DNA of 45,810 nucleotides from a virus. The stretch covers positions 1 to 45,810 of IMG/VR virus record IMGVR_UViG_3300021425_001636; one strand, given 5' to 3'. Under the pieces are notes generated by a model, which was not told the origin of the DNA, made no database searches, and saw nothing but the letters and a program-made list of their open reading frames with translations. How positions within the stretch are numbered: position 1 is the first letter of the stretch; each line of letters starts with the position of its first letter. Position numbers and translations under genes: made by a program. Of the stretch, positions 12,181-38,661 are shown piece after piece.

Positions 12181-12572
12181 TACAATTTTACCAATTCCCT
12201 ATTCTTCAGATGTTGTTCTGCAATGTCATCTTTGGATTGACCCATGTAACGCACTGCATGATGTTCGGTAATTAACAACTCGTTGATGTTTTCCCCATCA
12301 ACAAGAAACTCACCGAGGATACGACCAAACTTACCCTTACCATCTTTTGTTGTTTTCAGAATGGGAGTCTTACCTAACTGAGTCTTGAGAAACTCTTTTG
12401 CGGCAAGTCCAAACTTCTTTTCGACTTTATCACGAGTTCGTGATTCGGGGGTGTCCACGCCAAGTAAACGGACTCTCTCCTTTCGAAGCCATACACCAAA
12501 TCCCAAATCGATATCGACATCAACGGTATCACCATCAACGACACGAACCACTTTTGTTCTGTATTCATACAT
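12180..12572 (-). CDS. staphylococcal-nuclease-like (thermonuclease) protein
   Basis: 130 residues covering one SNase domain with no signal peptide. VVRVVDGDTVDVD gives the first calcium-binding strand, VRLLGVDTPES supplies R35, D40, T41 and E43, and GKFGRILGEF supplies R84; these correspond closely to the catalytic and calcium residues of Staphylococcus nuclease (D21, R35, D40, T41, E43, R87). It should cut DNA or RNA with calcium. Without a signal sequence it would act in the cytoplasm, for example on host nucleic acid. It sits oddly among sugar enzymes. Confidence 0.88.
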   Translation of the reverse strand: MYEYRTKVVRVVDGDTVDVDIDLGFGVWLRKERVRLLGVDTPESRTRDKVEKKFGLAAKEFLKTQLGKTPILKTTKDGKGKFGRILGEFLVDGENINELLITEHHAVRYMGQSKDDIAEQHLKNRELVKL

Positions 12573-17940: not shown

Positions 17941-18479
17941 CCTCTTTCCCACTTTACATAATACCTGTTACGGTCAGGCATAAACTCGGTTAGTTTGAAT
18001 CCAAATGCAGTGGATAGTAACAGGTGGTCTTCTAGTTTCCAGTGCCAGAAAGGCACTTCGTTTACCTTATCATTACCATGATCACGATGTGATGGATTAC
18101 ATCTCCAGTAGATGCGTGACTTCGGTTTCAATGCCTTACACATCTGTTCGGTTTGTTTTGTGATTAGATTCCAATCACCAAAGTTGATACTACCCAGTGC
18201 AAACGCAACATCATACTTCTCTTCCGTCTCGTAGTTTTCGATTGCAACCTGTTCATCAGAACCTATGTCTGTAATATCAATTCCATGCAGACCGGCAATG
18301 TGACGCTTAAAAGGATTGATACCACAACCAACATCCAGAACTCGTTCCCCTTCTCCGATTTCATCTATTAACCTAAACCCTGTCCAGTAATACCTATCAA
18401 GTCCCGCAGTGCGTGAACTTGGCCAATCGTGCGTAAAGTAATCTTTTAAAAAACCCATATGTGGATTAATGGTAGACAT
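17937..18479 (-). CDS. class I SAM-dependent methyltransferase-like protein
   Basis: 180 residues from MSTINPHMGF, preceded by AAGGA; a later ATG at 18458 is possible. RVLDVGCGINPFKRH is a clear SAM-binding motif, HGIDITDIG gives strand 2, and YDVAFALGSINFGDWN the central strand. It ends with PDRNRYYVKWE. It is unlike the other methyltransferase in the island and is flanked by sulfotransferase-like genes, so it probably methylates an island-made molecule, or a sugar precursor. Confidence 0.8.
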   Translation of the reverse strand: MSTINPHMGFLKDYFTHDWPSSRTAGLDRYYWTGFRLIDEIGEGERVLDVGCGINPFKRHIAGLHGIDITDIGSDEQVAIENYETEEKYDVAFALGSINFGDWNLITKQTEQMCKALKPKSRIYWRCNPSHRDHGNDKVNEVPFWHWKLEDHLLLSTAFGFKLTEFMPDRNRYYVKWERG

Positions 18480-19041
18480 ATACACTTACATCCTTCTTTT
18501 CATAAACATCTCTCACCATAGCAGATGTATCCAGTTCCAGAACTCCAAGTACATCCAAGTTATCATCACACTTGACAATTCTATCCTTGTTCTTATATAT
18601 GAATGTGGTTATTGCTTGATTCTGCAACTGTATCTGGTGAAACATATTGTTTTGATTCTTATACCACTTGTAACTAGGATAGGGGATATCAAAACCTCCA
18701 CACTCGTTCCACCAGTTCCAACACTCATAATCATTTCTTATTACCATAACAATAGGACATCTGTATTGAGTCAGGTAATCCAGTTGATAGGCAAAGGTAT
18801 GGGATTTGATTAATCTAACACCCTTACCATAAAATGGTTTGTCCCATTGAAGTGCATCATTCTCAAACTCCATCATAGGGTCAAAGTATGCACCACCATG
18901 CACCAGACCGTTGTGGTGCTTATACCTTCGTTGTGTGGCATCATCTGTCTGGTCAAAGGACTTAGACTTCCAGATATGATTTGCAACTCCAGACCAACGA
19001 GAGCCTGGAGCACCCGTCATCAATAGATATTTACCTTTCAT
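18466..19041 (-). CDS. sulfotransferase-like P-loop protein
   Basis: 191 residues. LLMTGAPGSRWSGVANHIW is a P-loop-type start in the place of the phosphosulfate loop, and CPIVMVIRNDYECWNWW corresponds to the 3'-phosphate region (RNxxxxxxxW). The region between includes VRLIKSHTFAYQLDYL, where KSH matches the KSHT motif of many sulfotransferases. A second sulfotransferase-like gene precedes it. No membrane anchor is visible, so it would act in the cytoplasm. Confidence 0.65.
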   Translation of the reverse strand: MKGKYLLMTGAPGSRWSGVANHIWKSKSFDQTDDATQRRYKHHNGLVHGGAYFDPMMEFENDALQWDKPFYGKGVRLIKSHTFAYQLDYLTQYRCPIVMVIRNDYECWNWWNECGGFDIPYPSYKWYKNQNNMFHQIQLQNQAITTFIYKNKDRIVKCDDNLDVLGVLELDTSAMVRDVYEKKDVSVYVYH

Positions 19042-19669
19042 TTTTCGGTCTTATCCCATTCCATACTTGTTCATCCAACCAGTGAGAATTAACGTGTTTT
19101 ACATACTTCGCATTCTGGTCATCCTCTAGAGTTGTTGCTACTCTTTTATCCCAACAAGCGATAGGAAAGTCCAGTACCTTGGACAACCACTTCAAGTAAA
19201 CACTTCCATAAAGATAGAGTGATTCGTGTGACAGAAACTCCAAATCCGCATCTAGGTTGTAGTAGTACTGTAATGCAATGGGGAGAGTCACTTCCCTACG
19301 AACTCTGAGTTGTTGTTCTACATTGATATTTTTGTCCCTTACTACGACACAAACCTTTACATCATACCCCGCCTCTTGAGCTTCGTAAACAACTTCTTGT
19401 ATACAAGGGATTCGTTTTGTGCCATCATAGACAAAAGGTACACTGACATTCGCAACCATGTAGTCTTGGGTCAGCATACTCTTTGTCTTGGATGGATCGA
19501 CCCAACACTCCGCAAAGGGTTCTTCGTCAGATGGTATCCAGTACTTGTCTCCAAAGTCCCATCCATTTACATCGGGATGGTAACTGAATATCTTACTGAA
19601 TAGATGATTCCCAGACCCCTGTGGGCCTGTGATAATGATTAGTTTTTTAGACTCTTTGTTGTCCGACAT
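19031..19669 (-). CDS. sulfotransferase-like P-loop protein
   Basis: 212 residues. LIIITGPQGSGNHLFSKIF is a phosphate-binding loop of sulfotransferase/kinase type, with VKVCVVVRDKNINVEQQ in the place of the 3'-phosphate site. It shares layout with the gene downstream, suggesting paralogy, but similarity is weak outside the two motifs. It overlaps its neighbours by 11 and 23 bases. A small kinase is an alternative reading. Confidence 0.6.
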   Translation of the reverse strand: MSDNKESKKLIIITGPQGSGNHLFSKIFSYHPDVNGWDFGDKYWIPSDEEPFAECWVDPSKTKSMLTQDYMVANVSVPFVYDGTKRIPCIQEVVYEAQEAGYDVKVCVVVRDKNINVEQQLRVRREVTLPIALQYYYNLDADLEFLSHESLYLYGSVYLKWLSKVLDFPIACWDKRVATTLEDDQNAKYVKHVNSHWLDEQVWNGIRPKNER

Positions 19670-20348
19670 AGGTACGCACTTTCAATGGGTTAACTTCATC
19701 TGTCGGCCCTGTACCAGAGTCAGGACTGAACACAAATAGAGTTACGTCTTCTCCTTGATTACACATGAAGTTGTGTAGAACATTTCTTTCCATTACCCAA
19801 CAATCACCTTCCGAGATAGGGAATATCTGACCGTGGTCAAGTTCAATCTCACCCTTTCCTTTCAGAATAAGACCGATGCGTTGACTTGGATGGGTGTGTA
19901 AGGTTTGTTGCATCCCCGCTGGGAAATGAACATAGTTGACTACAGGTAGTCCTAGTCGGCCTGGATTTGATGCAGTGGTATTTGTACCACCATCCATATA
20001 CGACAAATTACCACAAGGATTGCCATGAGGTATGAATAGTCGGTCATCGTTCATAGACAAACCATAGAATCTTATATGAGCGAACACAGAGTTCTCTTTA
20101 TGGTAATCTACCTTTGCGGTAAAGTCTTTGTTGGTCTGTCCTGTAAAGGTATTATGTTCAACCGAGTATCCGCCGTTCACTTTAACACTACAGTCTTTGC
20201 CCATAAAGTAACTTGTTCCAATAGTATCTTCAAAGTTATACACATCGAACTTGTTTCTAAAGACGGTGATATCATAGTTCCAGATATCTCGAACCTTGTA
20301 GGTTTCTCCGTCACCTATACATTTAATCTGTTCACACTTCAGTTTCAT
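19647..20348 (-). CDS. cupin-domain protein
   Basis: 233 residues. The C-terminal half is a cupin: HTHPSQRIGLILKGKGEIE (the histidine pair and glutamate region) and FPISEGDCWVMERNVLHNF (second motif with a final histidine). The N-terminal half, about 120 residues, has DIWNYDITVFRNKFDVYNF and is mostly beta, perhaps a second, degenerate barrel. Cupins of this size act as sugar epimerases/isomerases or metal oxygenases; the histidines would bind a metal. The start overlaps the upstream gene as ATGA. Confidence 0.75.
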   Translation of the reverse strand: MKLKCEQIKCIGDGETYKVRDIWNYDITVFRNKFDVYNFEDTIGTSYFMGKDCSVKVNGGYSVEHNTFTGQTNKDFTAKVDYHKENSVFAHIRFYGLSMNDDRLFIPHGNPCGNLSYMDGGTNTTASNPGRLGLPVVNYVHFPAGMQQTLHTHPSQRIGLILKGKGEIELDHGQIFPISEGDCWVMERNVLHNFMCNQGEDVTLFVFSPDSGTGPTDEVNPLKVRTYVGQQRV

Positions 20349-20899
20349 AATCCTGTTACTTCCATAATCTCCTTGGGTATATAGGGTATCAACATCCTCT
20401 CAGGATGCCAAACAATCGCACAGATGTTTCCTTTGTACCAAGACTCAATGTCACCATCTGTATCAGTATCTAATAATACACTATTTGGGGGCTGTTTGTC
20501 AATAGCAATATTGTGAAAACTATTCACATTATTAGGATTACCGAATCGGTCATACACCAGATGTTCAACATCATAGTGATTCTCTTTACCTTGTCTGGTC
20601 TCACCACCCATGATTTCTGTAAGCAAAAATGCACCGTGACAGACACCAAGAATGGGTTTACCCAACTTGACCATTTCTGTCGCAAGAGATACTTCTGTGG
20701 TGATACGAATCTGCTCGTTTCCTCCACCCGTAATAATGAGGAGGTCTAGAGATTCTGCGAGGGATTCATAATCTAAGTCATCACGATTGGGTACAGGGAC
20801 GAGTTCATGACCCCTTAACAACCGATACCAGTTGTGATCTAAGGAGTCATGTTTCTCTCTGTTGTGCGTGAGGACTCGTTGAGTGAGTCCTATCTTCAT
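20345..20899 (-). CDS. class I glutamine amidotransferase-like protein
   Basis: 184 residues, a stand-alone GATase-1/C26 domain. GKPILGVCHGAFLLTEIMGG holds the nucleophile elbow with cysteine, IITGGGNEQIR the oxyanion region, and WHPERMLIP supplies the histidine (and glutamate) of the triad. It would release ammonia from glutamine for a partner amidation, or hydrolyse a gamma-glutamyl compound. A synthase partner is not evident beside it. The ATG follows the upstream stop directly (TAGATG). An internal TTGACA-18-TATTAT lies at 20473-20502. Confidence 0.85.
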   Translation of the reverse strand: MKIGLTQRVLTHNREKHDSLDHNWYRLLRGHELVPVPNRDDLDYESLAESLDLLIITGGGNEQIRITTEVSLATEMVKLGKPILGVCHGAFLLTEIMGGETRQGKENHYDVEHLVYDRFGNPNNVNSFHNIAIDKQPPNSVLLDTDTDGDIESWYKGNICAIVWHPERMLIPYIPKEIMEVTGL

Positions 20900-21598
20900 C
20901 TACCAACCGTAAGCGGCGTTTACGAGTTCTCGTGAACCTTGTGCTTCTACAGTGTTTTTGCATGAGATTTCAAACAGGTCTTTACGCATTGCTTCGATGA
21001 CTCGTTGGACACGACTTTGTGTCTCAGAGTCAGTTGCAACTTTGCGTAACTTCCATCCACCGATTGCACTGTGGAAACCTTCGTCTTTTGCGATCTCACG
21101 ATAACGGGTTGAGATGAAACTATCTTGAATAGTGTCTGCCATCTGATTCCAGACTGCTTCTGCACGACCTTCCGCAACAAGTTGATATGCGGCAAGGACT
21201 GCCTCATCATCTTCTGCACCATACTTCTCCAGAAGTGTAGCACCCTTTGCGGTGTCTGCTTTTCGCTCGTCTTCAAGCGCCTGAACAACATCAATCTCTT
21301 CACCTTTGATGTGTTCGATTACTTCTTTAACCATACGGTAGTGTTTCGCTTCATCAGCGGCCTGTTTGGTTAGAAGTTCTAATTCTTTGGGGTCTGCATT
21401 GTCAGGTACACTGGCAATCTGTGCAGAGATTTCGGTCATGTTCATGCGTTCATTGACCATACGACCAATGAAGTGATCGACCATCTCTTCTTGGGGTAAG
21501 TCACCTTCAAAGTACTCTTTGACATTCATCTTGGATGCTTCGAACAGTGCTTGGTTTTCGTTGCGAATTTTCTTCACAAACTCGTTGGGGTTTAACAT
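20900..21598 (-). CDS. ferritin-like diiron protein
   Basis: 232 residues, nearly all helix. Metal-ligand pattern: E50 or E56 in NERMNMTEIS, E83xxH86 in DEAKH, E143 in VAEGRAEAVW and E173xxH176 in DEGFH. This is the E, ExxH, E, ExxH arrangement of ferritin-like oxygenases and oxidases such as PaaA- or AurF-type enzymes. It is unrelated to the phage NrdB at 35671. It follows its own late promoter at 21651-21658 and has AGGAGA before the ATG, so it and the genes below are probably expressed late. Substrate unknown. Confidence 0.75.
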   Translation of the reverse strand: MLNPNEFVKKIRNENQALFEASKMNVKEYFEGDLPQEEMVDHFIGRMVNERMNMTEISAQIASVPDNADPKELELLTKQAADEAKHYRMVKEVIEHIKGEEIDVVQALEDERKADTAKGATLLEKYGAEDDEAVLAAYQLVAEGRAEAVWNQMADTIQDSFISTRYREIAKDEGFHSAIGGWKLRKVATDSETQSRVQRVIEAMRKDLFEISCKNTVEAQGSRELVNAAYGW

Positions 21599-21650
21599 TA
21601 GGATTCTCCTATCACTCTATTAATATAATTGTTGACGGTATTGTCAGTAT

Positions 21651-21658
21651 TATTTATA
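21651..21658 (-). promoter_or_regulatory. late promoter before the ferritin-like gene
   Basis: TATAAATA on the minus strand, followed by ATACT, overlapping the stop codon of the upstream gene and giving a leader of about 45 bases with AGGAGA before the ATG at 21598. The leader contains a short TGAC/GTCA inverted repeat. It could drive the island genes down to 11545. Confidence 0.65.
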
Positions 21659-22442
21659 AGATTTGTTTCATCAACTCGTCAACATTTTCGCCATTATTTG
21701 GAAGTTTATCCTTGAGAAAGAAGTGTACAAAGTGACAATCCTTTACATTGTTTACCGCACCGAACAGTCCATTCCATTTGCCATCCATGTGTTTAGTCGG
21801 TATCTTATATCGTTTGAGGAAATAGTTTAGTAGAGTCTGGTCAGTACTCCACTTATATGCACCAACTCCATCTACAAAGTCTTTGAACTCCATACGGTTC
21901 AGGAAACTGTGGGGGTCTTGTCCTTTGAGATATGGTTTGAATAGTTGACTGTTTAACAGAATCATTCCCATGTTGAAGAACTCATAACCATGTTCATTGG
22001 GTTTGAAGTCTAATCCACTTGCGTGTAACTTTCGATACTGCATGGCAGAGTAGTTTTGAATCTTACCACTATACCAAGGTTGGATGTCCATCTCTCTTTC
22101 TGCTACAACACCGAATGCATGATCACTGCCAAAGTGGTCGAATATATTGGGAGCATCGGGTCGGATGTATATGTCGGCATCAATAATTGCAATCTGGTCA
22201 TAATGGTCGAGGTATTCAAATGCGTTTTCCTTTTCATAGATAGGTAGATACCCTCCATACTTCATATAGGATTCTTCGCTTCGTCCACTACAGAAGATGT
22301 CAGGTTTAATGCGGAGTTTGGGTTGGGTTAATACGATGTGTTTTATATCATGTCGTTCACAATATTGTGCAACACTATCAATACAGTGTTCATAGAGTTT
22401 CGATGGTTTGCCCACCGACACTTGGTAAATCATTCTATTCAT
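21654..22442 (-). CDS. glycosyltransferase, GT8-like
   Basis: 262 residues; an in-frame ATG three codons later is also possible. IYQVSVGKPSKLYEHCIDSV begins the nucleotide-binding half, QIAIIDADIYIRPDAP contains the DxD motif (DAD), EFFNMGMILLN and WSTDQTLLNYFL follow as in GT8 enzymes, and KWNGLFG with CHFVHFF closes the active site. It should transfer a hexose from a nucleotide sugar. The start overlaps the upstream stop by eight bases. Confidence 0.78.
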   Translation of the reverse strand: MNRMIYQVSVGKPSKLYEHCIDSVAQYCERHDIKHIVLTQPKLRIKPDIFCSGRSEESYMKYGGYLPIYEKENAFEYLDHYDQIAIIDADIYIRPDAPNIFDHFGSDHAFGVVAEREMDIQPWYSGKIQNYSAMQYRKLHASGLDFKPNEHGYEFFNMGMILLNSQLFKPYLKGQDPHSFLNRMEFKDFVDGVGAYKWSTDQTLLNYFLKRYKIPTKHMDGKWNGLFGAVNNVKDCHFVHFFLKDKLPNNGENVDELMKQIL

Positions 22443-23031
22443 GTTTCATTGTGTTCCCGATATCATCGTAGTATATAGGACTGGCGTAATTGACAATCTT
22501 GTCTTTATTTTGTCCCATAAACTCCCACATATAATCATCCACAAACTTAGTGAGAGTACTCTCCGACAAAGTATAATACAAAGTCTCTGCAACATCAGGT
22601 GTCATATAGTATGCATGGGTGACAGGACACAAAGGTTCATTTGTTCCCCAGTAAGGATGTCCTCGAAAACGAGTCGAGTAGTTCTTCCAGTCATCCTCAT
22701 CGACAAAGTCTGCAAACGCAAAGAAGTCACCGATGATGGGCATATCACTCTTTCGTTGTATCACATCATGTTCTATAATAGAGATGGGTTTATCTTCTTC
22801 GAAACACTTCTTCCACAACTCTAGATGACTATAGAACCCAGCCTTTTCGGTAGGACTAAAATCACGCACACCCCAGAACACACCAAAGTCCAGATAGTCT
22901 GGCATAGTGTCAGGAGTGTATGCATCAAAGAGGTTGACTTCACAATCCCATGTGGGTATTGTCTGTCTTGCATAATGTTGTGATACCTTGTGTGCGGGTA
23001 TCTGTATCATCCATAGGTTATCGACAATCAT
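22435..23031 (-). CDS. glycosyltransferase family 25-like protein
   Basis: 198 residues. FSPTEKAGFYSHLELWKKCFE then KPISIIEHDVI follows the GT25 order seen in the two genes at 13214 and 13858, and AYYMTPDVAETLYYTL matches their AYM-P-A-L block. It is more diverged than those two are from each other. The first 30 residues (MIVDNLWMIQIPAHKVS) form the start of the fold. Confidence 0.65.
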   Translation of the reverse strand: MIVDNLWMIQIPAHKVSQHYARQTIPTWDCEVNLFDAYTPDTMPDYLDFGVFWGVRDFSPTEKAGFYSHLELWKKCFEEDKPISIIEHDVIQRKSDMPIIGDFFAFADFVDEDDWKNYSTRFRGHPYWGTNEPLCPVTHAYYMTPDVAETLYYTLSESTLTKFVDDYMWEFMGQNKDKIVNYASPIYYDDIGNTMKHE

Positions 23032-23957
23032 ATTAATCTATGTTCTTTCAATTTCAAATAAGTTTCCCAACTATGGTCGGTGTTTCTCAGTATACCGACC
23101 AATCCTTCCACATTGTAGTGTGATCTTTTACTGCAAAAAATTTGATGCCAACCAAATTCATTACACATTAGTTGTTCATTCTCATATAACTTAAAAATAT
23201 CTATGTCTTTTATATCACTCTCTTTGAAACATATCATAAAGTCTTGGAGAAAGTTATCCCAATTGCAGTCGTTGACTTGGTGTTCAGAACTAGTGTCTTC
23301 TGAATTTAAACAATAGAAACCACGGTCTATGTGTCTTCTAATATTTCTTCTTTTTACTCTAACAAACAGATATTGTCTGACTTGTGGTTGACTAGATAAG
23401 TCGTAACCCTGCTTTTCAGCTAGACGAAGTCTTGCACCTATGCCATTTTTATAATGATCGTGAGTAGGCATAGTTGAAATACCCACTATTCTTTCATCAC
23501 ACAATCTCAATACTTCGTCCAAAGGGAATATTGGACAGATGTGTAAGTCCCATCTACATCTAATATAATAGTCATATTTCTTAGGAACTTTTGACCACTG
23601 AATCGCAAAGGATAGTTGTTGAAAACAACCTGTTACGACTCCCCTCTTCACCGTTGGATGTTTTACATCCGTAAACCTATGGAGTTTTATCCACGACTTC
23701 TCATTTACATTTTTTCTGACTACTTCGTAAGGATCGTAAGATGCGAGTGGTGGATATGGAACATAGTCAATGTCTATTAGATTATCGACATCTTTAAATT
23801 TATCTTTATCATCTTCCCAAGTCTGATAATATATGTCACAATCCTTGAAAGTTTTTTGTATCCTATTTACGGATGCAATGAGGTCTTTCGGCCGTAAGTA
23901 ATCGTGATAACCACCACTAACTAAGACAGCAACTTTAGGTTTAGTCTCTGTAGTCAT
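23028..23957 (-). CDS. sugar-transferase-like protein of the RxRxD family, distant copy
   Basis: 309 residues. VAVLVSGGYHDYL at the start and YDYYIRCRWDLHICP in the middle mirror ALCLSGR and YDMIIRTRFDVVV in the gene at 14552, and EFGWHQIFCSKR near the end mirrors its WYQILSE region. This copy is about 60 residues longer, with a Lys/Arg-rich insertion (VRVKRRNIRRHIDRG). Enzymatic activity is inferred only from the company it keeps. It shares 17 bases with the radical SAM gene upstream. Confidence 0.6.
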   Translation of the reverse strand: MTTETKPKVAVLVSGGYHDYLRPKDLIASVNRIQKTFKDCDIYYQTWEDDKDKFKDVDNLIDIDYVPYPPLASYDPYEVVRKNVNEKSWIKLHRFTDVKHPTVKRGVVTGCFQQLSFAIQWSKVPKKYDYYIRCRWDLHICPIFPLDEVLRLCDERIVGISTMPTHDHYKNGIGARLRLAEKQGYDLSSQPQVRQYLFVRVKRRNIRRHIDRGFYCLNSEDTSSEHQVNDCNWDNFLQDFMICFKESDIKDIDIFKLYENEQLMCNEFGWHQIFCSKRSHYNVEGLVGILRNTDHSWETYLKLKEHRLI

Positions 23958-24906
23958 TTAGATCAAACTCAGTTCCGTGCATCTTCATCAGATCACGTTC
24001 ATGATTGGTATAGACTAAGACTTCGGGGTCATCAAGAAGAAAGTCGCAACTACGACAGTAGTCAGGATAATTTCCAGTAGTATGATCTTCACGGAGTTTA
24101 GTATACTCTTCACCATACCAGATTTCTTCGATGGTGTTCTCAGAGGTGTACCCCAGAACGGCCTTTTCGTCTTGTCCGAGTACTTGGCAACATGGTGCAA
24201 CAGCACCTCTCTTACCGTCAAGACCGCCAGCACGGATAACAACATCAGGACTAAAGGGTCTTCCACAAGTCTTTACCTTCCCCGTTCTCTCATTCTCACC
24301 GATCTCATATACACCAGACCAGTTATGCATCTTCCAGATTTCTGTTTTGACACCGAGATCGTTTACTAACTTCTTGTATGCCTCCAATTCATTATTTATA
24401 TTTTCATTGTCAGTAATCAAGTGGTAGGTTGCGACCACGCAGTCAGAGTTTGTTTCAGTCACATACTCTTGCATTGCTCGAATGTTATTTACTACTGTAT
24501 TGAAGTTACCACCAATGATGTTGTGCATCCACTCGTCATATTTCTCAGGACTATATCCAATGAAAGAGAATCGATAGAAGTCCAATCCCGCATCAACACA
24601 GTCTCTCATAAACTGTCCAGACATACGGAATCCATTGGAGAACATGAAGCACTTCGCTCCATACTTCTTTACGATCTTGATATACTCTGGTAGGTTTCTA
24701 TTGAGAGTAGGTTCACCACTACCCTCTAGGTTGACAACTCGTAGTCCGTGTTTGGCACAGTCTGCAACATTCTTCTCAAACTCTTCCAATCCCATCTTCT
24801 TGAGAAAGTCTTTGTTTCTTCCACCAGTACGCATATCCTGTGGACACATAGTACACGAATAGTTACACCCACCATTAATTTCAATTACTGCTCTATCAAT
24901 TTCCAT
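23941..24906 (-). CDS. radical SAM / SPASM-domain enzyme
   Basis: 321 residues. GGCNYSCTMCP gives the CxxxCxxC iron-sulfur site (C14, C18, C21), and NLEGSGEPTLN the SAM-binding GEP-like motif. The C-terminal part has TCGRPF, APCCQVLG and PDYCRSCDF, the cysteine set of a SPASM or twitch domain binding an auxiliary cluster. Such enzymes modify peptides, sugars or small molecules by radical chemistry; phage-island versions are often of unknown substrate. The neighbouring genes point to a carbohydrate or small-molecule target. Confidence 0.88.
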   Translation of the reverse strand: MEIDRAVIEINGGCNYSCTMCPQDMRTGGRNKDFLKKMGLEEFEKNVADCAKHGLRVVNLEGSGEPTLNRNLPEYIKIVKKYGAKCFMFSNGFRMSGQFMRDCVDAGLDFYRFSFIGYSPEKYDEWMHNIIGGNFNTVVNNIRAMQEYVTETNSDCVVATYHLITDNENINNELEAYKKLVNDLGVKTEIWKMHNWSGVYEIGENERTGKVKTCGRPFSPDVVIRAGGLDGKRGAVAPCCQVLGQDEKAVLGYTSENTIEEIWYGEEYTKLREDHTTGNYPDYCRSCDFLLDDPEVLVYTNHERDLMKMHGTEFDLNDYRD

Positions 24907-25699
24907 GATATTTCTCTTTTAACATATCTATATAGTTCCGTGACTTATCTTTCATTTCAGTCAGGCCTGATTCAAATCCTTCTCCACCATCTGATATGAA
25001 GTCAAGTACTGCGTGTCTACTGGGTCTTCTTATTGCTTGAGGTGTATTATATCCTGTAATACCTTCCCATGATGGAATGAACATTGGCTTACCAAAGTTT
25101 CTCGCAATGTAATGCCACATACCATCATAACAAACAATGAAGTCAGCTTCTTGTATCTGTTTAAATGCATCTCTAACAGGTGTTCGATAGGTCAACTCAA
25201 CTAGTATCCAACCCTCCCAAGACAGCAAGCTAATTATATCAGACCAATCATCGTTTGTCAAGAACCTTTTCCAACTTCTTGGTGGTTCACTATTGTAGGT
25301 TGGTGTCCAGATAACTATCTTCTTTTTCTTGGGTGCAAATGCTTCTGGTTTGAATATCCAATCATTCGGTGGAGCACCAGTTGGTTCGAATGCCTCTGAA
25401 TCAAAATAGAATCGTGCCTTCTTTTTATTCGGATTCATGTTACCGTGTTCAAATAGGTCAGAGTTATAGACATGAGTAAGAACAACATCATCCCGTTGAT
25501 GATACTGTGAATGAATCCATTCCATGCGTTCTATGATTGTTTCGGGGTCTTCGGGATGATGAAGGTAATCCTCATCATGTTCCCAATGCATCTCTAGGTT
25601 AACTTTAATGTTATTATCGAAACAATAGTTATGACAAACATTGAGTGCTTGCATGAAGTCACCTACACCCCATGTTCCTCTCCACCTAACTTTTTCCAT
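24896..25699 (-). CDS. glycosyltransferase family 9-like protein
   Basis: 267 residues from the ATG at 25699 (a TTG one codon before is less likely). RGTWGVGDFMQALNVCHNY resembles the GxGDxxxA start of heptosyltransferases, KKKIVIWTPTYNSEPPRSW is the central start of the second Rossmann domain, and ADFIVCYDGMWHYIARNFGK is the GT9 nucleotide-sugar-binding block with the position of the D-G-H motif. It may add heptose or a related sugar. A perfect sigma70-type promoter lies inside the gene. Confidence 0.7.
   Translation of the reverse strand: MEKVRWRGTWGVGDFMQALNVCHNYCFDNNIKVNLEMHWEHDEDYLHHPEDPETIIERMEWIHSQYHQRDDVVLTHVYNSDLFEHGNMNPNKKKARFYFDSEAFEPTGAPPNDWIFKPEAFAPKKKKIVIWTPTYNSEPPRSWKRFLTNDDWSDIISLLSWEGWILVELTYRTPVRDAFKQIQEADFIVCYDGMWHYIARNFGKPMFIPSWEGITGYNTPQAIRRPSRHAVLDFISDGGEGFESGLTEMKDKSRNYIDMLKEKYHGN
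25233..25261 (-). promoter_or_regulatory. sigma70-type promoter inside the GT9-like gene
   Basis: TTGACA (25261-25256), 17 bases, TATAAT (25238-25233) on the minus strand, both hexamers perfect. It would transcribe the radical SAM gene and those below it. Confidence 0.65.
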
Positions 25700-25702
25700 C
25701 AA

Positions 25703-26029
25703 CTACTTCTTATTAGCGAATGCTTGACCACCAAAGAATGCCGCTACGATTGCAGCAACAGATACGAAGTATGTCGCAGCCATGTCACCCAGAATCTTGG
25801 ATGCACTGTCTAGACCAACCCAAACCGCAAGGACAACCGCAAACGGATATAACAACATACCCCATAGGGCAAACCATGCCATACTGCGTTGTGCATCTCG
25901 CATTGCATCTTGGTCATCGAGTTCTTTTCTCTTAAATTCAAGATACATCTCTTCTTCTGCTTTGGATACTTTACCATCACCGTTTGAATCGGCAGGATGG
26001 AATAGAGTTGTTTGTGTTTTTTCTTCCAT
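25703..26029 (-). CDS. small membrane protein with EF-hand loop
   Basis: 108 residues. Residues 14-25 (DSNGDGKVSKAE) form a canonical EF-hand calcium loop with ligands at positions 1, 3, 5, 7, 9 and 12. A charged helix follows (KRKELDDQDAMRDAQRS), then two membrane segments, about residues 50-72 (MAWFALWGMLLYPFAVVLAV) and 83-104. The size and two-helix layout would suit a holin or other inner-membrane protein, but the position among sugar enzymes suggests otherwise. Start lies two bases before the preceding stop ends. Confidence 0.7.
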   Translation of the reverse strand: MEEKTQTTLFHPADSNGDGKVSKAEEEMYLEFKRKELDDQDAMRDAQRSMAWFALWGMLLYPFAVVLAVWVGLDSASKILGDMAATYFVSVAAIVAAFFGGQAFANKK

Positions 26030-26030
26030 A

Positions 26031-27548
26031 TTAGAATACCTTTACTTTATATTTTCGTTCCCACTCTTGGGCATCTTCTATTGTATTGACCATAGGTTTA
26101 TTCCGTATGTTCAATGATGTATTTAGTAACATCGGAACACCCGTTAATTTGTAGTATTCTTCTAGTATCTGACGGAGTACGGATTTGCAGTCTGGTTTTA
26201 CAAGTTGAACCCTTGCAGTGCCATCAACATGAGTAACAGACTTATAGTCATGTTTTGCGACTGCGGTGAACTGCATATATTCGTTCATTGGCCCTTCAAA
26301 GTAATCATCTGCGTGTTCTGATAGGATAGCAGGTGCAAAGGGTCTGAATCGATGTCTGCGTTTGATATCATTTACTGTATCCTTTACATCATATCTGACA
26401 TCTGCGAGTAGAGAACGATTACCTAACGCACGAGGGCCATACTCTGCACGACCATTTGCGACACCACAAACCTTGTTTTCAGAAAGATATTTTGCAACCT
26501 CTTTGGGGTCTATATCTCGTTCTATATTGTGTCCCAGATACGGACTAAAGTCCTTTAGGTGTGTTCCACCAGTCTCTTTATGCCATGTATATGTGGCACA
26601 ACCCAATGCACTACCCGCATCAGTAGGATTGATTGAGATGTGCATTTCATCAAACAGTTCTCGTATCATTGAGTTCGCAACAACATTCTGAGCGCATCCA
26701 CCAGAGTAGACTAGTTTAGAACCGTACTTGCGTGCCTCTTTCATAAGTTCCATGATTTCAACTTCAAAGAATTTCTGAACAGTAGCAGAAGCATCTTCAT
26801 CATTAATTTCTCCTATACGATCATCCATTCTTTGGTTATACTTAAAAAACTTATCGGAAAGAACACTTTCTGCACGAGCTGTTCCTTCAAACTCTACGAT
26901 TTGAGTGAGATTTCTCCCTTCTTCACTTTCGAACCAATGATAACAGTTGTGACATATATTATAGAGTTTTTCATCAACTTCACCATAGGCAGAGAGACCC
27001 ATGACAATATACTCATCTCTAAGTTTTTTCATTCCTAACAAACTGGTCACATGACCATAGATAGCGCCCAAGGATTGGGGCCAAAGAACTGACTTGATAG
27101 TATTAAAATTATGATCTTTGATTGAGATGGATTCCAATTCACCAGAACCGTCTACCGATACTAGTACGGTATCTTCTTTGGATTCCCAAGGACGAGTAAA
27201 GAATGCTAGAGCACTGTGACTTTCGTGATGTTGATTGAAATCATCGAACATCAACGAATTACGCATTGGGGTTGATTGTTCTCTTTTTTCGTTGTTAAAT
27301 CCCTTTTGTGACCAATCACCAAATGTTCGGTAACCACCCATCATTTCTCTACGCATATCTGCATCTTCGTAGAAGGTGACATGATCATCCTTGTTGGTCA
27401 AGTCCCACATTTCAGGGGGGATTAGATCATCATATTTTTTTCCACTATAACGCTCTGCCTGTGATGCAAACTCGACAGTACCGTCTTTATTGACGATAGC
27501 CAAGCCTGCATCGTGGAAATACTCGGAGTAACCTACATATCTTTTCAT
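26031..27548 (-). CDS. carbamoyltransferase, NodU/CmcH/TobZ family
   Basis: 505 residues, slightly shorter than typical members (about 550-600). The N-terminal domain has GYSEYFHDAGLAIV, FNQHHESHSALAFF (the paired histidines of the metal site) and VSVDGSGELES, and the C-terminal YrdC-like region has NGRAEYGPRALGNRSLLADV with FRPFAPAIL. Such enzymes make carbamoyl adenylate from carbamoyl phosphate and ATP and carbamoylate hydroxyl groups of sugars or antibiotics. Here a sugar in the island-made glycan is a natural substrate. Confidence 0.9.
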   Translation of the reverse strand: MKRYVGYSEYFHDAGLAIVNKDGTVEFASQAERYSGKKYDDLIPPEMWDLTNKDDHVTFYEDADMRREMMGGYRTFGDWSQKGFNNEKREQSTPMRNSLMFDDFNQHHESHSALAFFTRPWESKEDTVLVSVDGSGELESISIKDHNFNTIKSVLWPQSLGAIYGHVTSLLGMKKLRDEYIVMGLSAYGEVDEKLYNICHNCYHWFESEEGRNLTQIVEFEGTARAESVLSDKFFKYNQRMDDRIGEINDEDASATVQKFFEVEIMELMKEARKYGSKLVYSGGCAQNVVANSMIRELFDEMHISINPTDAGSALGCATYTWHKETGGTHLKDFSPYLGHNIERDIDPKEVAKYLSENKVCGVANGRAEYGPRALGNRSLLADVRYDVKDTVNDIKRRHRFRPFAPAILSEHADDYFEGPMNEYMQFTAVAKHDYKSVTHVDGTARVQLVKPDCKSVLRQILEEYYKLTGVPMLLNTSLNIRNKPMVNTIEDAQEWERKYKVKVF

Positions 27549-27566
27549 GTAAGTATATAGGGGGGG

Positions 27567-28181
27567 TTATCCCTCTAGGTATTCGTAGATATCTTTCCAA
27601 TCTTTCATAAGGGGAAACTCTTGATTGTCCATGTTGTATCCGTGTTCCATCACAAGACTTTCTAGACCAAACCTCTTACCAGCTTCGGCATTCTCCACTT
27701 TGTCTTCAACCCAGATGTATTCTGTTCCTTCATACTGTGCAAGGACTTCATCCTTATCCGCACCTGTATCAAGGTAGATGAACTTGACAAACGAAGTCTC
27801 ACCGAACAACTTCTTGATGTTCATTGTGCGTAACTTCTGTGCGTTCTCGTCTTTACTCATAGAGGTGATTAGGTGGAATACATAACCGTGTTCTTCGTGC
27901 AACTTACGAACATAATGCATTGCATCACGGAGTGGAGGAACGAAACCCATGTGGGCAGACTCGTTGAAGAATCTGACTAGTTTTTTAGATTCTGTGCGGG
28001 GGATATCATAGATTTTTGCGATATCATATTCAAGTGGATTTACTGCTTTGTAACCTTTCTCTTGCATCCAGACATTAAACGCATAACCCCAGTTTAGTAG
28101 GACTCCGTCTGCATCAGTCAGGATAACTTTTTGGTGATCTGTAATCAATTCATATTCCTTAGTACTCTGTTGTTTCTTCAT
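27567..28181 (-). CDS. HAD-family phosphatase / 5'-nucleotidase-like
   Basis: 204 residues. KVILTDADGVLLNWG is HAD motif I (DADG), LITSM motif II and WVEDKVENAEAG motif IV, with a helical cap that starts FNVWMQEKGYK. It may dephosphorylate nucleotides or sugar phosphates. It is first behind the early promoter at 28191-28219 and its ATG lies nine bases after the -10 box with no Shine-Dalgarno sequence, as for the gene at 6607. Confidence 0.8.
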   Translation of the reverse strand: MKKQQSTKEYELITDHQKVILTDADGVLLNWGYAFNVWMQEKGYKAVNPLEYDIAKIYDIPRTESKKLVRFFNESAHMGFVPPLRDAMHYVRKLHEEHGYVFHLITSMSKDENAQKLRTMNIKKLFGETSFVKFIYLDTGADKDEVLAQYEGTEYIWVEDKVENAEAGKRFGLESLVMEHGYNMDNQEFPLMKDWKDIYEYLEG

Positions 28182-31838: not shown

Positions 31839-32090
31839 TTATTTTGCAAGTTTCACATTTAATTCGTTTTCAAGGATAAATCGGACTCGTTCACGGTCTA
31901 GTGAATCACCGTCACCCCAAGTGATCTCATCGTTCAGAGACATCATGTATCGTTTGATTGCTTCTTTCTGTTGACTCACAGTCGCAAAGTTCTGTTTGTC
32001 AGCATAGAGACCATTCTGACCATAGAAACTGTCAACATACTGGAGGAACTGAATCATCACTGGTTTGTTCATAAACTCTTCATTCATCAT
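31839..32090 (-). CDS. small hypothetical early protein
   Basis: 83 residues from the ATG ATG at 32090, chosen because the promoter at 32124-32152 lies within the longer frame open to 32165 and because AGAGAGAAG precedes it. The sequence MNKPVMIQFLQYVDSFYGQN and SQQKEAIKRYMMSLNDEITW is helical; no family known. Confidence 0.7.
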   Translation of the reverse strand: MMNEEFMNKPVMIQFLQYVDSFYGQNGLYADKQNFATVSQQKEAIKRYMMSLNDEITWGDGDSLDRERVRFILENELNVKLAK

Positions 32091-32123
32091 AATCTTCTCT
32101 CTCTTTTTTGACTTTACCTTGTT

Positions 32124-32152
32124 ATTATAACGAGAGTGGCAACCTTTGTCAA
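32124..32152 (-). promoter_or_regulatory. early sigma70-type promoter
   Basis: TTGACA (32152-32147), 17 bases, TATAAT (32129-32124) on the minus strand; perfect hexamers, with a leader of about 28 bases to the ATG at 32090. Confidence 0.9.
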
Positions 32153-32161
32153 GTGTTTTTT

Positions 32162-32899
32162 TCAATTATTTTTCGTATGTAAGCTCCTTTCAGCATCTAT
32201 AGTATTTTTCCAATAACAATCCAAATAAACACCACCGACATACGAACGATGATAATGGTTACTTGGTTCTGATAAGACTTGATACCATCCCTCCTCAGCA
32301 CCCTTTAGTTTCTTATTCTCGTACAATTCATCAACCAAATCACAATCCCATAGATCATAAGGATGGATTATAAGTGCATCATTTATGTAATACACAGAGG
32401 ATTTTGGCATTCTATTCAACTCATTATACAGATTCCCTTGTTTTTTACTAATGTTGATGGTATTGAAACCGATAGGAATTTGTTCTTCATATGACTGTTG
32501 AATATGAAAATTCCAGTCAATCTCCTCAGATACGATAGCGTCAAAACGACTTCGGATAACTATATCACATTTAGGAATATTCTTCATCATATGATTGTGC
32601 AGAAGTATTTGTTTGTTCCAATGAATACTTTTTGTGGCATAACTTCCTAACAAGGTATCATGATCAGCCGAAACAAATAATTCTCTTCTCTTACAACTCT
32701 CCAAATCTGCATATGGTTCTGTGTCAAGAACGCAATGATAGTCGGGATTTGGTTCGTCCATCTTGAAGTCAGAGGTCAAATCACAGTCTGTATATGTTCC
32801 AGTATAGTAATTGTTATGAGGAACAGTTCTACGCAATCTTTCTGTGAAATCAATATCACTCCACTTACTTGATATACACAATGCAATATCTATTGACAC
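32162..32899 (-). CDS. sugar-transferase-like protein of the RxRxD family, copy 2
   Basis: 245 residues from a GTG overlapping the upstream stop. It follows the gene at 14552 along its whole length: ALCISSKWSD for ALCLSGR, IHWNKQILLHNHMMKNIP for ANWHKQILIHNEMMKSIP, CDIVIRSRFDAIV for YDMIIRTRFDVVV, and AEEGWYQVLSEP near the end. It lies 17 kb away in a different accessory insert, so the family was duplicated or acquired twice. Confidence 0.72.
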   Translation of the reverse strand: MSIDIALCISSKWSDIDFTERLRRTVPHNNYYTGTYTDCDLTSDFKMDEPNPDYHCVLDTEPYADLESCKRRELFVSADHDTLLGSYATKSIHWNKQILLHNHMMKNIPKCDIVIRSRFDAIVSEEIDWNFHIQQSYEEQIPIGFNTINISKKQGNLYNELNRMPKSSVYYINDALIIHPYDLWDCDLVDELYENKKLKGAEEGWYQVLSEPSNHYHRSYVGGVYLDCYWKNTIDAERSLHTKNN

Positions 32900-34047
32900 G
32901 ACTGCAAATGCCCTCGTAACTGTTCCATGTTGATTTTGGTATCATTCATAAATGGTGTGAGGTCTATGTTGGTTGGTAAATCCAATTCTCTTTTGTTAGT
33001 AATTATATATTGTCCGTTATCAAATACCATCTCATCTTCCATCCGTCTAGGTTCGTCCCACCATTCGTGATTGACTTCAAGGTAACCATTCTTAAACTCC
33101 ACATCGTAGAAATCATCGGGTATTATACCAAGACCATTTTCGACAACAACACTATCCCCGTCTACACGGTTTACTAATAGTGGAATAGCGGTATCGATAC
33201 TACCGTAATGTGAGTAGAAACAAACATTGTATTCCTTCGCAATTTTGACAAACATTCGGTTTAGTGTGAACCCACACATATTGATATTCAGCGTTCTCTT
33301 GAAGGGTTCGTTTAAAGTCTCCAGAAAATCAATCAATGTAACTTTATTGGGTATCATGATGTGAGTTGTATTCATATTTTGAATCGTTTTGTAACCCCGC
33401 AAGAGAAGATGGTCTTCTCCTGATAGGTCATGCCCGATAGGAATACTGAGGTGTCTTTCACATTTCATCAGAGCTGGTAATAGAGATGTGAGTAATGCCG
33501 ATGCATGATGCAAATTACGAGAGTGACAAACTACAGAGTCCTCTTCAAAACCAAAGACATCTATATTCCTCTTTGATATTTCATAGACTTCTTTGTGTGA
33601 AAACAAGACGGGTCGGGATGGTTTTGTTGTCCCAGATGTAGAACTTAACAGGAATGGATCATCTGGCGAAATATCAACATGGAAGTATTCTTCCGAACCA
33701 TCTTGTCTTACATCAACTGCTTTACCGCCATATCGGTCAATCATTTCATCATGTAGACCACCATAGGTGCCAGTGGTATCTTCTAAAGAGTCATGAATAT
33801 AGAATTGAGATGGCCCATGCAGTGCGAGTTTTGTATAAGGTAAGGACTCACGAGTGGCAGGACTGTCTAAAATAATAACTTTCAAACCCATCTCTGCACA
33901 GGCAAAGATGGATGCGATATGTAATTCGTTTACTATGAGAATTGAAATGGTAACAAGGTCACCTTTCTTTGCGCCTGCATCTCTAAGATGATTTTTAACT
34001 CTATCTATTGGATAGATGTTTCTCTTTAATATATTACGATTTAACAC
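32890..34047 (-). CDS. ANL-type adenylate-forming enzyme (acyl/amino acid activating)
   Basis: 385 residues from a GTG. LLSSTSGTTKPSRPVLFSHK is the phosphate-binding loop of AMP-binding enzymes, and RNLHHASALLTSLLPALMKC the following helix. GDLVTISILIVNELHIASIF at residue 30-50 is the Rossmann-like N-terminal part, and NGYLEVNHEWWDEPRRMEDE the region before the hinge. The usual C-terminal subdomain with the catalytic lysine appears short or missing, as the protein is about 100 residues shorter than a standard acyl-CoA synthetase. The substrate is unknown. Such an enzyme is unusual in a T4-like phage. Confidence 0.75.
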   Translation of the reverse strand: MLNRNILKRNIYPIDRVKNHLRDAGAKKGDLVTISILIVNELHIASIFACAEMGLKVIILDSPATRESLPYTKLALHGPSQFYIHDSLEDTTGTYGGLHDEMIDRYGGKAVDVRQDGSEEYFHVDISPDDPFLLSSTSGTTKPSRPVLFSHKEVYEISKRNIDVFGFEEDSVVCHSRNLHHASALLTSLLPALMKCERHLSIPIGHDLSGEDHLLLRGYKTIQNMNTTHIMIPNKVTLIDFLETLNEPFKRTLNINMCGFTLNRMFVKIAKEYNVCFYSHYGSIDTAIPLLVNRVDGDSVVVENGLGIIPDDFYDVEFKNGYLEVNHEWWDEPRRMEDEMVFDNGQYIITNKRELDLPTNIDLTPFMNDTKINMEQLRGHLQSCQ

Positions 34048-35152
34048 TTGTCATTCCGTACTGGAAGTCATCTCCATCATATACAAATTTTATGTTCATC
34101 TTACTTTCCCAATAAAGATGATCTTGTGTAGGTTCATTTTGAATCACACATTCAATAGGTTTATCGAAATCTCCAATTGTTGTGTTGTAAAAATCAAGGA
34201 AGAGAAACAGAGTCTTGTCCGATGGCGCCATAAAATTATCAACTCGATCTCTACGCATAAGTTTAGCTGACCTTCTAACCGTAAAATTCCAAACCATTTC
34301 TTTTGTGACTTTTTTGTCATTTGGTAACATGACAAAATCAAAGAATCCATCAACTTCGGGAATAGACATATCGACAAGACGCCCCGATTGTATGATTGCA
34401 GGTAGAATATGACGGAGAAGTGCATTGTGATGAAAGTGACTTTTTGATACACCAACAACTTTATCCTTCAAGTTGAGTGGTGTTGATCTAACTTTATCCA
34501 ACACCTCTTCATGACTTACTTCGAAAATAACATTATCTCGTTTAAGATTTGTCACTATATTATCGGTTTCATGAACACAGTCTCCAAAACCACTACCACT
34601 TTTGTATCCAGAAAAGACAACAGATTGGGGTGATGGTTGCCAAGGTTGTGGATTATCCCTTTCTTGTTGATTGTCCACCTCACCAATATAATGTCTATCT
34701 ACCATCAATTCAAGACCACTACCCTTGTACGGCCCTGTAGGGAATAAATCTCTCTTAGTGATTTGTCCCTGAAATATTTTGTCATCATGATCGTGAATAA
34801 TTTTTTTAAAGGGAGTATCATTATTTTGTCTCATATATTCACGATAATAATTATCCGTTCTTTCAAGACATTTGATGTGTTCGTCATTAGCGACTATCAG
34901 GTGAAATTGTTTTTCACTCGGAATGTGTATTGGAATATCGAGTTCAAACATAGCAAAGTAAAATGCAAGGGTTTTGGCACTACAAGACAAAGCAGATAAA
35001 ACACACTCATCACCTCCAGAAAACCCCCACTGAATAAGTTGATGTTTCACTTGATTGATCTGTGTCATCAACTCAGAATAATTCACATTGGAATCTATAT
35101 CAGTTATAGAAAGGTTTCTATTAATAATTTCACGATTTAATATGTTTTGCAT
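34034..35152 (-). CDS. degenerate ANL-like paralogue
   Basis: 372 residues. It parallels the next gene: NREIINRNLSITDI for NRNILKRNI, a helix around SCSAKTLAFYFAMFELDIPI for HIASIFACAEMGLKVI, and VVGVSKSHFHHNALLRHILP for VVCHSRNLHHASALLTSLLP. The serine/threonine-rich ATP-binding loop is not recognisable: the matching region reads SVVFSGYKSGSGFGD. It is therefore probably inactive in adenylation and may serve as a partner or scaffold. It starts 23 bases inside the upstream gene. Confidence 0.65.
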   Translation of the reverse strand: MQNILNREIINRNLSITDIDSNVNYSELMTQINQVKHQLIQWGFSGGDECVLSALSCSAKTLAFYFAMFELDIPIHIPSEKQFHLIVANDEHIKCLERTDNYYREYMRQNNDTPFKKIIHDHDDKIFQGQITKRDLFPTGPYKGSGLELMVDRHYIGEVDNQQERDNPQPWQPSPQSVVFSGYKSGSGFGDCVHETDNIVTNLKRDNVIFEVSHEEVLDKVRSTPLNLKDKVVGVSKSHFHHNALLRHILPAIIQSGRLVDMSIPEVDGFFDFVMLPNDKKVTKEMVWNFTVRRSAKLMRRDRVDNFMAPSDKTLFLFLDFYNTTIGDFDKPIECVIQNEPTQDHLYWESKMNIKFVYDGDDFQYGMTSVKS

Positions 35153-35534
35153 GAATCTTACATCCTATGAATTCGTTATAATATTGATCACTCAGTAGAA
35201 CATCGTACTCGAATTGTAGTTTCGCTTCGTAATACGAACACTCACCTTTAGTGCGACACATCCTGAGAATCTCTCTGTGGAACGCCTGGCCCCCTTCTAC
35301 GAGGGTTTTTACTGATTCGGACGAACCATAGTAATCACGCCAGTCCGATTGGACTCGTGTTCTTTTTCTTCTTTTTCTTGTTTTTGTAACAGGAAGGATT
35401 TTGGGTTTCCAGAAGAACTTCTTACCGATATACTTCTTACCAGTACTTAACTCGGTCAAACAATATACAAATCCCTGATAATCTTCTAAAAAGGATTCGT
35501 CTGGTTCAAACTCTTTATCTTCATATATCCACAT
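35130..35534 (-). CDS. GIY-YIG-like putative endonuclease
   Basis: 134 residues. GFVYCLTELSTGKKYIGKKF is the GIY-YIG-like strand pair, followed by a basic linker (KTRKRRKRTRVQSDW), DYYGSSESVKTLV and EILRMCRTKGECSYYEAKLQF, where the last glutamate would be catalytic. Similar proteins, labelled putative endonuclease, are common near nrd genes in marine T4-like phages. No ribosome binding site is evident; the ATG lies 14 bases after the zinc-ribbon gene's stop. Confidence 0.75.
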   Translation of the reverse strand: MWIYEDKEFEPDESFLEDYQGFVYCLTELSTGKKYIGKKFFWKPKILPVTKTRKRRKRTRVQSDWRDYYGSSESVKTLVEGGQAFHREILRMCRTKGECSYYEAKLQFEYDVLLSDQYYNEFIGCKIHAKHIKS

Positions 35535-36675: not shown

Positions 36676-38661
36676 TTAGCCTTCACAAGCACGACATTCA
36701 TCGTCTTCGGTTGTTTCCATTGGTTTGTTTAAATATTCCATCAAATCTTCATAACCACCAACATACTCACCTTCGATGTAAATCTGTGGTACGGTCTTAA
36801 CATCTCGACCTGTTACTTCTTTTGCAGTCTTACCAATCTCTTGTAGGTCAATCTTATCAAACGGTATTCCTCTCAACTTCAACTCTTCCATTGCCATTGA
36901 ACAGAATGGACAGTTTGATTTACTATAAACGATTGACCTAGTATCACCCGCAAGTGCTACTCGTTCTACCTTTTCGGATACATTCTCTGCTCGTTGTTTC
37001 GCTTCGGTGCGTAGATAGTATAGACCCTTGAGTCCTTCTCTCCACGCCTTGAGATGCACCTTATTCACATAGGACTTCTCTGCACCAGCAGGGAAGAATA
37101 GGTTTACACTCTGACCTTGACAGATAAACTCTTGTCGTTCAGCCGCATGGGTTACTACCCAGTTTTGGTCTAACTCATCCGCAGTTCTGAAGATTGCCTT
37201 CTCACCTTCTGTCAGGAATGGTAGATGTTGTACCGAACCTTTGTTGGTAATAATAGATGTCCAGTTGGACTCGTTGTTCTCGTCCTTCTCGTCCAAGAGT
37301 CGAGTAAGGTACTTATTCTTCACAAGGAAACTACCCGCACGAGTTCTATGAGTATATGCATTCGCCTTCAATGGTTCTATTGACGGTGAAGTTGATAGTA
37401 TAACACCACTTGAGGCGTTAGGAGCAATCGCAAGAAGATGGGAATTTCTTCTTCCAGTTCCAACTCCATCTGGATATTCTCCTCTTTCCTCGGCAAGCAG
37501 TTCTGTTTCTGCGACTGCCTCGGAATTAATGTGGTTAAATACTGTTCGGTTGATTTCTCGTGCCGCTTCTGATTCCCATGCAACTCCGTGTTTCTGTAAC
37601 AAGGAATGGAATCCCATTGCTCCGAGTCCGATTGAGCGTTCTCGTTCTGCACTATATTTCGCTCTTGAGATTGTGTCGGGTGCTTCATCAACGAAATACT
37701 GCAAGACATTGTCAAGCATCCTAACAAGGTCACGAACAATAGTTGTATCTTTCCATTCATCGTAGTATTCTAGATTCAGAGATGATAAACAACACACCGC
37801 AGTTCGTTCTGCACTGGTTGGTAGGTGAATCTCATTACAGAGATTCGATCCGTGAATCTTTAGTCCTTTGTCTTTTAATGATTCGGGTAACGCTTTGTTT
37901 GCAGTATCAATAAAGTTGAGATATGGTTCACCTGTTCGGAAACGAGTCTCAAGGATTCGTTCCCATAGTTTACGAGCATTGATGGTTTCTTTTACTTGTC
38001 CATCCTTGGGGTCACGCAGATCAAAAGAACTTCCCTGTTGAACCGCTTCCATAAACTCATCGGTAATGTTAATCGCATTGTGTAGGTTGAGTGCCTTTCT
38101 TTGTACATCTCCAGTAGGAATACGCAGATTCAGAAACTCAATAACATCTGGATGACTTACATCCATATAGGCTGCATATGAACCCTTACGAGTCTTACCT
38201 TGTCGGTATGCAATCATATCCGCATCTACGGTATGTAGAAACGGAATCGGGCCAGGCGCAATGTCGGATACTGTGCGAACATCACTCCAGTGTCCACCGA
38301 CACCACCACCCATAACCGATAACCATCGTAGTTCGGATGAGTGTCCGATTAGTCCTTCTAGTGTGTCAGGCACATAGGTAAGGAAACAACTGATAGGCAT
38401 TCCTTTACCCTTACCATGACCGTTGGGTGCATTCGATAGAACTGGTGATGCAAACATGAACCACTTGTTGGACACATAGTCATACAACCGTTGTGCCAAC
38501 TCGTCATCCATCTCATCACGATACTTACTCCATGCTTTACTTGCTCTTGCGAAACCCTCTTGTGGACTTTTTTCATAATCATTTAAATAGAAATCTTTTA
38601 ACATCCCTACTGCATATTCGGCTAGTAGGTCATCTTTCTTCTTATCAATTTTGAGGGTCAT
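36676..38661 (-). CDS. nrdA: ribonucleotide reductase class Ia, alpha subunit with embedded glutaredoxin
   Basis: 661 residues. The catalytic barrel shows C92 in PISCFLTYVP, N273-C275-E277 in GSNLCNEIHLP, C290 in AVCCLSSLNL and Y548/Y549 in LKGLYYLR, equivalent to C225, N437/C439/E441, C462 and Y730/Y731 of the E. coli enzyme. Residues 575-650 are a glutaredoxin: CPFC at 584-587, TVP with P625 and GGYEDL. The C-terminal redox pair C656/C659 (CRAC) follows it, so the reductant is inserted between barrel and tail. The N-terminal ATP cone is absent, so allosteric shut-off by dATP is probably lost. Confidence 0.95.
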   Translation of the reverse strand: MTLKIDKKKDDLLAEYAVGMLKDFYLNDYEKSPQEGFARASKAWSKYRDEMDDELAQRLYDYVSNKWFMFASPVLSNAPNGHGKGKGMPISCFLTYVPDTLEGLIGHSSELRWLSVMGGGVGGHWSDVRTVSDIAPGPIPFLHTVDADMIAYRQGKTRKGSYAAYMDVSHPDVIEFLNLRIPTGDVQRKALNLHNAINITDEFMEAVQQGSSFDLRDPKDGQVKETINARKLWERILETRFRTGEPYLNFIDTANKALPESLKDKGLKIHGSNLCNEIHLPTSAERTAVCCLSSLNLEYYDEWKDTTIVRDLVRMLDNVLQYFVDEAPDTISRAKYSAERERSIGLGAMGFHSLLQKHGVAWESEAAREINRTVFNHINSEAVAETELLAEERGEYPDGVGTGRRNSHLLAIAPNASSGVILSTSPSIEPLKANAYTHRTRAGSFLVKNKYLTRLLDEKDENNESNWTSIITNKGSVQHLPFLTEGEKAIFRTADELDQNWVVTHAAERQEFICQGQSVNLFFPAGAEKSYVNKVHLKAWREGLKGLYYLRTEAKQRAENVSEKVERVALAGDTRSIVYSKSNCPFCSMAMEELKLRGIPFDKIDLQEIGKTAKEVTGRDVKTVPQIYIEGEYVGGYEDLMEYLNKPMETTEDDECRACEG

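Follow-up and report, generated by a model that had tools for sequence, protein, structure and literature searches.

A pair of homologous genes, termed here A and B, represents a phage-specific, N-domain-only branch of the well-studied ANL superfamily of adenylate-forming enzymes, and in many marine T4-like phages the putative enzyme (B) is kept together with a pseudoenzyme copy (A) that is itself under selection. The pair was analysed in IMG/VR virus record IMGVR_UViG_3300021425_001636; the whole stretch of 45,810 nt is referred to as the window. Gene A (34034–35152, minus strand) encodes 372 amino acids, a degenerate ANL N-domain paralog that ends near motif A5. Gene B (32890–34047, minus strand) has a GTG start and encodes a truncated ANL adenylate-forming enzyme of 385 amino acids. 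Gene C (32162–32899, minus strand) follows; its 245 amino acid product carries an RxRxD motif (32540–32554) and is presumed to be glycosyltransferase-like.

Homology of genes A and B

A preliminary description, made from the nucleotide sequence of the window, had noted that A and B share blocks over their lengths. Direct BLASTP comparison displays one short match of marginal significance (E 5e-4). Profile comparison, which had been named beforehand as a test that could refute the proposed pair, gave a strong result: hhalign of the two families has a probability of 99.6 and an E value of 5.2e-25 over 264 columns. As a negative control, the A family or the B family compared with the gene C family yields 0.2. 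In addition, structural models of the two proteins match ANL N-domains independently. Chance similarity is ruled out by the hhalign result, the negative control and the independent fold matches taken together, and A and B are homologous. Both proteins have the N-terminal signature LxR..I...DI, and among the families observed each is the nearest relative of the other. This common signature and mutual closeness suggest that A and B arose by duplication within the phage lineage.

Gene B

At the level of protein families, B matches PF00501 with 37.7 bits (gathering score 29.9; E 1.4e-9), and the same family is matched by all six B relatives that were scanned. The AlphaFold2 model of B (pLDDT 73, pTM 0.77) displays the ANL N-domain fold (Foldseek E 2.8e-16) and aligns with the N-domain of FACL13, 5zrn_A, with a VIA Z of 28.0, an rmsd of 3.0 and 330 aligned positions. 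ANL domains matched by the models include ones bound to acyl-AMP analogues. The protein consists of the N-domain and the first helix of the C-subdomain.

Motif A3, the ATP P-loop, is present in B as SSTSGTT (residues 135–141; 33625–33645, minus strand). The form SSTSG[TS]T is found in 20 of 20 B proteins and is invariant in relatives down to 40% identity, as are the Asp of motif A7 and many other residues of the active-site region. An A5-like motif, HYGSIDT (residues 280–286; 33190–33210, minus strand), is invariant in the alignment of relatives; YGSID is found in all of these, so that the position of motif A5 is kept while its residues differ from the canonical YGxTE. The invariant P-loop, HYGSIDT motif and A7 Asp are as expected for a working nucleotide site. 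Pairwise Nei–Gojobori dN/dS values for B are 0.14–0.20.

The C-terminal end of B is the motif DTKINMEQLRG (residues 369–379; 32911–32943, minus strand), where the protein stops, and motifs A9 and A10 are absent. DTK and QLRG are invariant in 12 of 12 aligned relatives, which end at most about 15 residues past DTKxNxEQLRG. The one exception, at locus L023, continues for about 47 residues with a sequence that is unrelated. A comparison of the C-terminal ends finds the C-terminal subdomain with the A10 lysine absent from B and its relatives, in agreement with the earlier observation that B lacks most of this subdomain. The truncation of B is a fixed trait of the family and not an accident of the window.

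Canonical ANL enzymes have about 100 more residues of C-terminal subdomain after the point where B stops, and they make use of the lysine-bearing part of this subdomain. B resembles the superfamily (PF00501; FACL13, MenE, MatB, EntE) in its N-domain fold, its A3 P-loop and its A7 Asp. It differs in that B proteins are about 385–445 amino acids long and end after the A8 helix, with no A9/A10 or catalytic lysine domain, and in having HYGSIDT as motif A5; no ANL subfamily fits B beyond the superfamily level. B is an N-domain-only relative and not a canonical two-domain ANL enzyme. It corresponds roughly to the A-core of enzymes that are divided into A-core and A-sub, such as nonribosomal peptide synthetase A domains and PchD (PMC9470617). 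In PchD, Acore comprises residues 1–439 and Asub residues 441–542, and Lys529 of Asub is near the sulfamate and sugar oxygens of the inhibitor (PMC9470617). Unlike these enzymes, B has no A-sub counterpart in cis, and none was recognised in trans. The neighbouring gene D108 was considered as a source of the missing C-domain and rejected, as nothing observed supports it.

Gene A

No curated family match was found for A. Its AlphaFold2 model (pLDDT 67, pTM 0.73) nevertheless has the ANL N-domain fold (Foldseek E 2.4e-10) and aligns with 1v26_A with a VIA Z of 21.2, an rmsd of 3.6 and 287 aligned positions; a search of the PDB with the A profile by itself likewise finds ANL chains (E 2e-4). A scripted check for the P-loop finds it in none of 20 A proteins, and the observation that only one gene of the pair retains the SSTSGTT loop thus holds across the family (B 20/20, A 0/20). 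A likewise lacks most of the C-terminal subdomain, as had been described, and stops near motif A5.

A is the faster-changing member of the pair. Its identity is about 23% between lineages, and the mean distance is 0.70 among A proteins vs 0.37 among B proteins. Reading frames of A are intact in 20 of 20 sequences compared. Pairwise Nei–Gojobori dN/dS values for A in relatives are 0.10–0.23, with pairs for both genes restricted to dS between 0.2 and 2. Both A and B are therefore under purifying selection, and A is not a decaying gene.

Distribution and co-inheritance

IMG/VR contains at least 109 confirmed B loci, and 80 of these were kept. No B was confirmed among 84,980 cellular genomes in two pattern scans. 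A tblastn search of 50,697 phage records gave no convincing B; there is one weak match to an unannotated gut-phage record (26% identity over 36% of B, E 0.01). No A was found in cultured phages by tblastn. The marine T4-like viruses with the pair form a widespread group.

In a census, 94 loci, some of them overlapping fetches of one contig, were grouped into 30 B clusters at 95% identity, here termed lineages. A is present on the same contig as B in 26 of the 30. It is adjacent to B in 23 lineages, upstream in 11 and downstream in 12. One lineage (the L002–L007 group) shows both kinds of placement, adjacent and remote, and two (L115–L121 and L130–L132) have a remote A only, about 8.5 kb upstream. 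In the L022–L026 lineage a different degenerate ANL paralog, P0004, takes the place of A. P0004 (L023:14254–15672, minus strand; 472 amino acids) is encoded on the opposite strand; its P-loop is degenerate (THTSGYSG) and its C-terminus is longer. The L127 and L148 contigs are too short for the presence of A to be judged, and at L149 there is no A within 32 kb. A scan seeded with A itself gave no match, owing to the fast divergence of this gene. When subgroups of A were used as seeds, every contig retrieved was one in which B had already been found. Frequent occurrence of each gene alone, which had been named beforehand as an observation against a functional pair, is thus not what is found. A and B are inherited together, and adjacency is not required.

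Genomic location and exchange

The pair is bordered upstream by a conserved gene for a segE-like GIY-YIG endonuclease (35130–35534, minus strand; PF19835, E 1e-34) and downstream by D108 (31839–32165, minus strand; phrog_7799, E 1.2e-16), which is found downstream of the pair in most loci. The true start of D108 is probably the ATG near 32090. The gene order is nrdB/nrdA and segE, then A, B and C, followed by D108, E139, a DUF6433 gene and phoH. The insert thus lies between core genes, with segE, nrdB and nrdA on one side and D108 and phoH on the other, as the preliminary description had proposed. That description also spoke of an overlapping set of three genes; the overlaps are present (segE/A 23 nt, A/B 14 nt, B/C 10 nt), but the set has four genes when segE is counted.

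The presence in the window of gp32, PhoH, NrdA/NrdB and SegE homologs, together with the membership in Kyanoviridae of the closest annotated phage DNA, that of C48C1 and Melnitz, shows that the designation T4-like is correct. The phage is thus related to Kyanoviridae, and it is rich in genes for glycan modification. C48C1 and Melnitz have the same nrdA-nrdB-segE-D108 order as the window and differ in having no A or B. Neither gene was found in the segE-to-D108 stretch of C48C1 and Melnitz-2, and the pair is therefore an accessory insert, as first suggested. The segE-like protein matches phrog_447, labelled 'NAD synthetase', and has the same product name in the C48C1 record; on a GIY-YIG protein this looks like a propagated misannotation. 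NrdA of the window (36676–38661) has a C-terminal glutaredoxin/thioredoxin-like domain, with a phrog_22 match at residues 577–646.

Whichever gene follows segE, A or B, its start usually overlaps the end of segE by the same 23 nt (ATGCAAAACATATTAAATCGT or ATTCCAAACATCTTAAATCGT), which indicates that the two genes have been exchanged in one slot. Loci that are distant in A tend to be distant in B as well (Mantel r 0.51, p 1e-4). Individual pairs of loci are discordant: A is 98% identical and B 80% between L028 and L044, and A is 85% identical and B 99% between L049 and L052. Judged by these identities, A and B recombine partly independently. Such swapped pairs fit a functional association better than an interface in which A and B are tightly co-adapted. 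Reading frames overlap in nearly every adjacent arrangement, which suggests coupled translation.

Possible functions of the pair

Our tentative preference, held with somewhat less than even confidence, is that B is an activating enzyme and A its non-catalytic partner, and that the two jointly supply an activated group for decoration of a glycan or surface molecule. B would be an ATP-dependent carboxylate-activating enzyme in which the ANL fold is cut down to the N-terminal domain, and would adenylate its substrate without the C-terminal lysine. A, a non-catalytic paralog of B duplicated in the phage lineage, would bind B and serve as a subunit, a regulator or an acceptor-docking protein. Together they would form an activated acyl or aminoacyl group, as acyl-AMP and then as an ester, amide or thioester; tailoring neighbours (the RxRxD, SGNH-like, methyltransferase and dioxygenase proteins) would use this group for the decoration. 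That the product is destined for a glycan is suggested by the gene neighbourhood only. In favour of the proposal are the conserved putative nucleotide site of B, the loss of the P-loop from an A that is still under purifying selection, the co-inheritance, overlapping frames and correlated distances of the two genes, and the glycan-modification context. Against an activating enzyme stand the altered motif A5 and the missing lysine-bearing part of the C-subdomain in B, for which no adjacent gene obviously supplies a substitute. From the sequences, a heteromeric enzyme is plausible; the discordant A and B histories, the A genes 8.5 kb away, the flipped order and the L149 locus without A speak against a tight heteromer. 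A stricter form of the proposal, which we think unlikely, is that A and B make up a minimal ANL enzyme that requires both proteins: the pseudo-ANL protein A would replace the C-subdomain in trans, either to close the active site or to present the acceptor. To our knowledge, such a heteromeric architecture is not known elsewhere in the ANL superfamily. A precedent of a more general kind is given by enzyme/pseudoenzyme paralog pairs (reviewed in PMC10211241), where likewise a fold is duplicated, one copy is without the catalytic motif and the two are co-inherited. Searches of the open-licence literature found no account of a pair of this kind, either from phages or from the ANL superfamily, and none of phage ANL genes or of ANL enzymes that consist of the N-domain only.

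Perhaps B needs no partner and is by itself a minimal adenylating enzyme, while A has the ANL fold but has taken on an independent new function, for example a binding or scaffold role; the two would then share a cassette and form no complex. The partly independent recombination, the flexible order with A sometimes remote, and the far greater divergence of A (mean distances above) are in keeping with this, but near-universal co-occurrence over 30 lineages and the failure of independent scans to reveal an A subgroup without B weigh against it, and we regard it as possible but somewhat doubtful. Neither protein need be an enzyme of the usual type: B may bind ATP, AMP or an acyl-adenylate and, for want of the C-terminal subdomain, act jointly with A as a sensor or regulator. 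The absence of A9/A10 from every B, the altered motif A5 and the lack of any active cellular ANL subfamily related beyond the superfamily level would all fit. This reading is made improbable by B, in which the P-loop and the putative active-site region are very strongly conserved, set beside the loss of the P-loop in A, where it is unconstrained.

Two further explanations carry much less weight. Reuse of the ANL fold in structural or virion-associated proteins has a fold precedent only, the ANL-like chain 8iuf_E1 of a respiratory supercomplex, among the matches listed; such a role is very improbable, as an ATP loop is conserved in B and both genes are in a metabolic/accessory region beside nrdA-nrdB, not among virion genes. 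That A is a functionless duplicate, a pseudogene in progress, might be thought from its lost catalytic loop, its truncation and its fast divergence. Yet the dN/dS values and intact frames described above, and the retention of A in 26 of 30 lineages, some sharing only about 40% B identity, refute it, and we give it practically no credence.

With B as the activating enzyme and A as its partner, the pair points to acyl or aminoacyl chemistry in phage-borne glycan modification. It also makes testable the questions of whether an ANL N-domain can activate carboxylates without the lysine-bearing C-domain, and whether a pseudoenzyme can act as a stand-in.

Neighbouring genes and the glycan-modification island

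Gene C has no family match. Homologs are found at L017–L019 and in the window at 14552–15295, where a second RxRxD protein is 44% identical to gene C and has a weak phrog_13607 match. Gene C was seen beside the pair only in this window, and a distant relative of it in L032; it is a variable companion of the pair. Other genes beside the pair also vary, and include a DUF6071/SGNH-like gene in many lineages and a PhyH-type dioxygenase. In L032 and L048, A is fused to a Methyltransf_24-like domain (L048 by sequence similarity to L032). A His-box membrane protein resembling fatty-acid desaturases is encoded directly upstream of the remote A (L158:759–1511 and L084:390–1142), and has no Pfam or PHROG match. 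A fatty-acid substrate, as this neighbour might imply, was set aside, as the protein is limited to one syntenic group and lacks a family match.

The window has a glycan-modification island at 11545–28181, with three GT25 proteins, GT8-like proteins, a sulfotransferase, two methyltransferases, a cupin, a radical SAM-SPASM protein, a NodU-type carbamoyltransferase and a nucleotidyltransferase. A glutamine amidotransferase and a HAD/nucleotidyltransferase fusion are encoded at 20345–20899 and 15289–16635. The best NCBIfam match of the amidotransferase is gamma-glutamyl-CDP-amidate hydrolase (E 5e-15, well under the family cut-off), and the two proteins may belong to a phage-borne pathway that modifies sugars with phosphoramidate (MeOPN-like).
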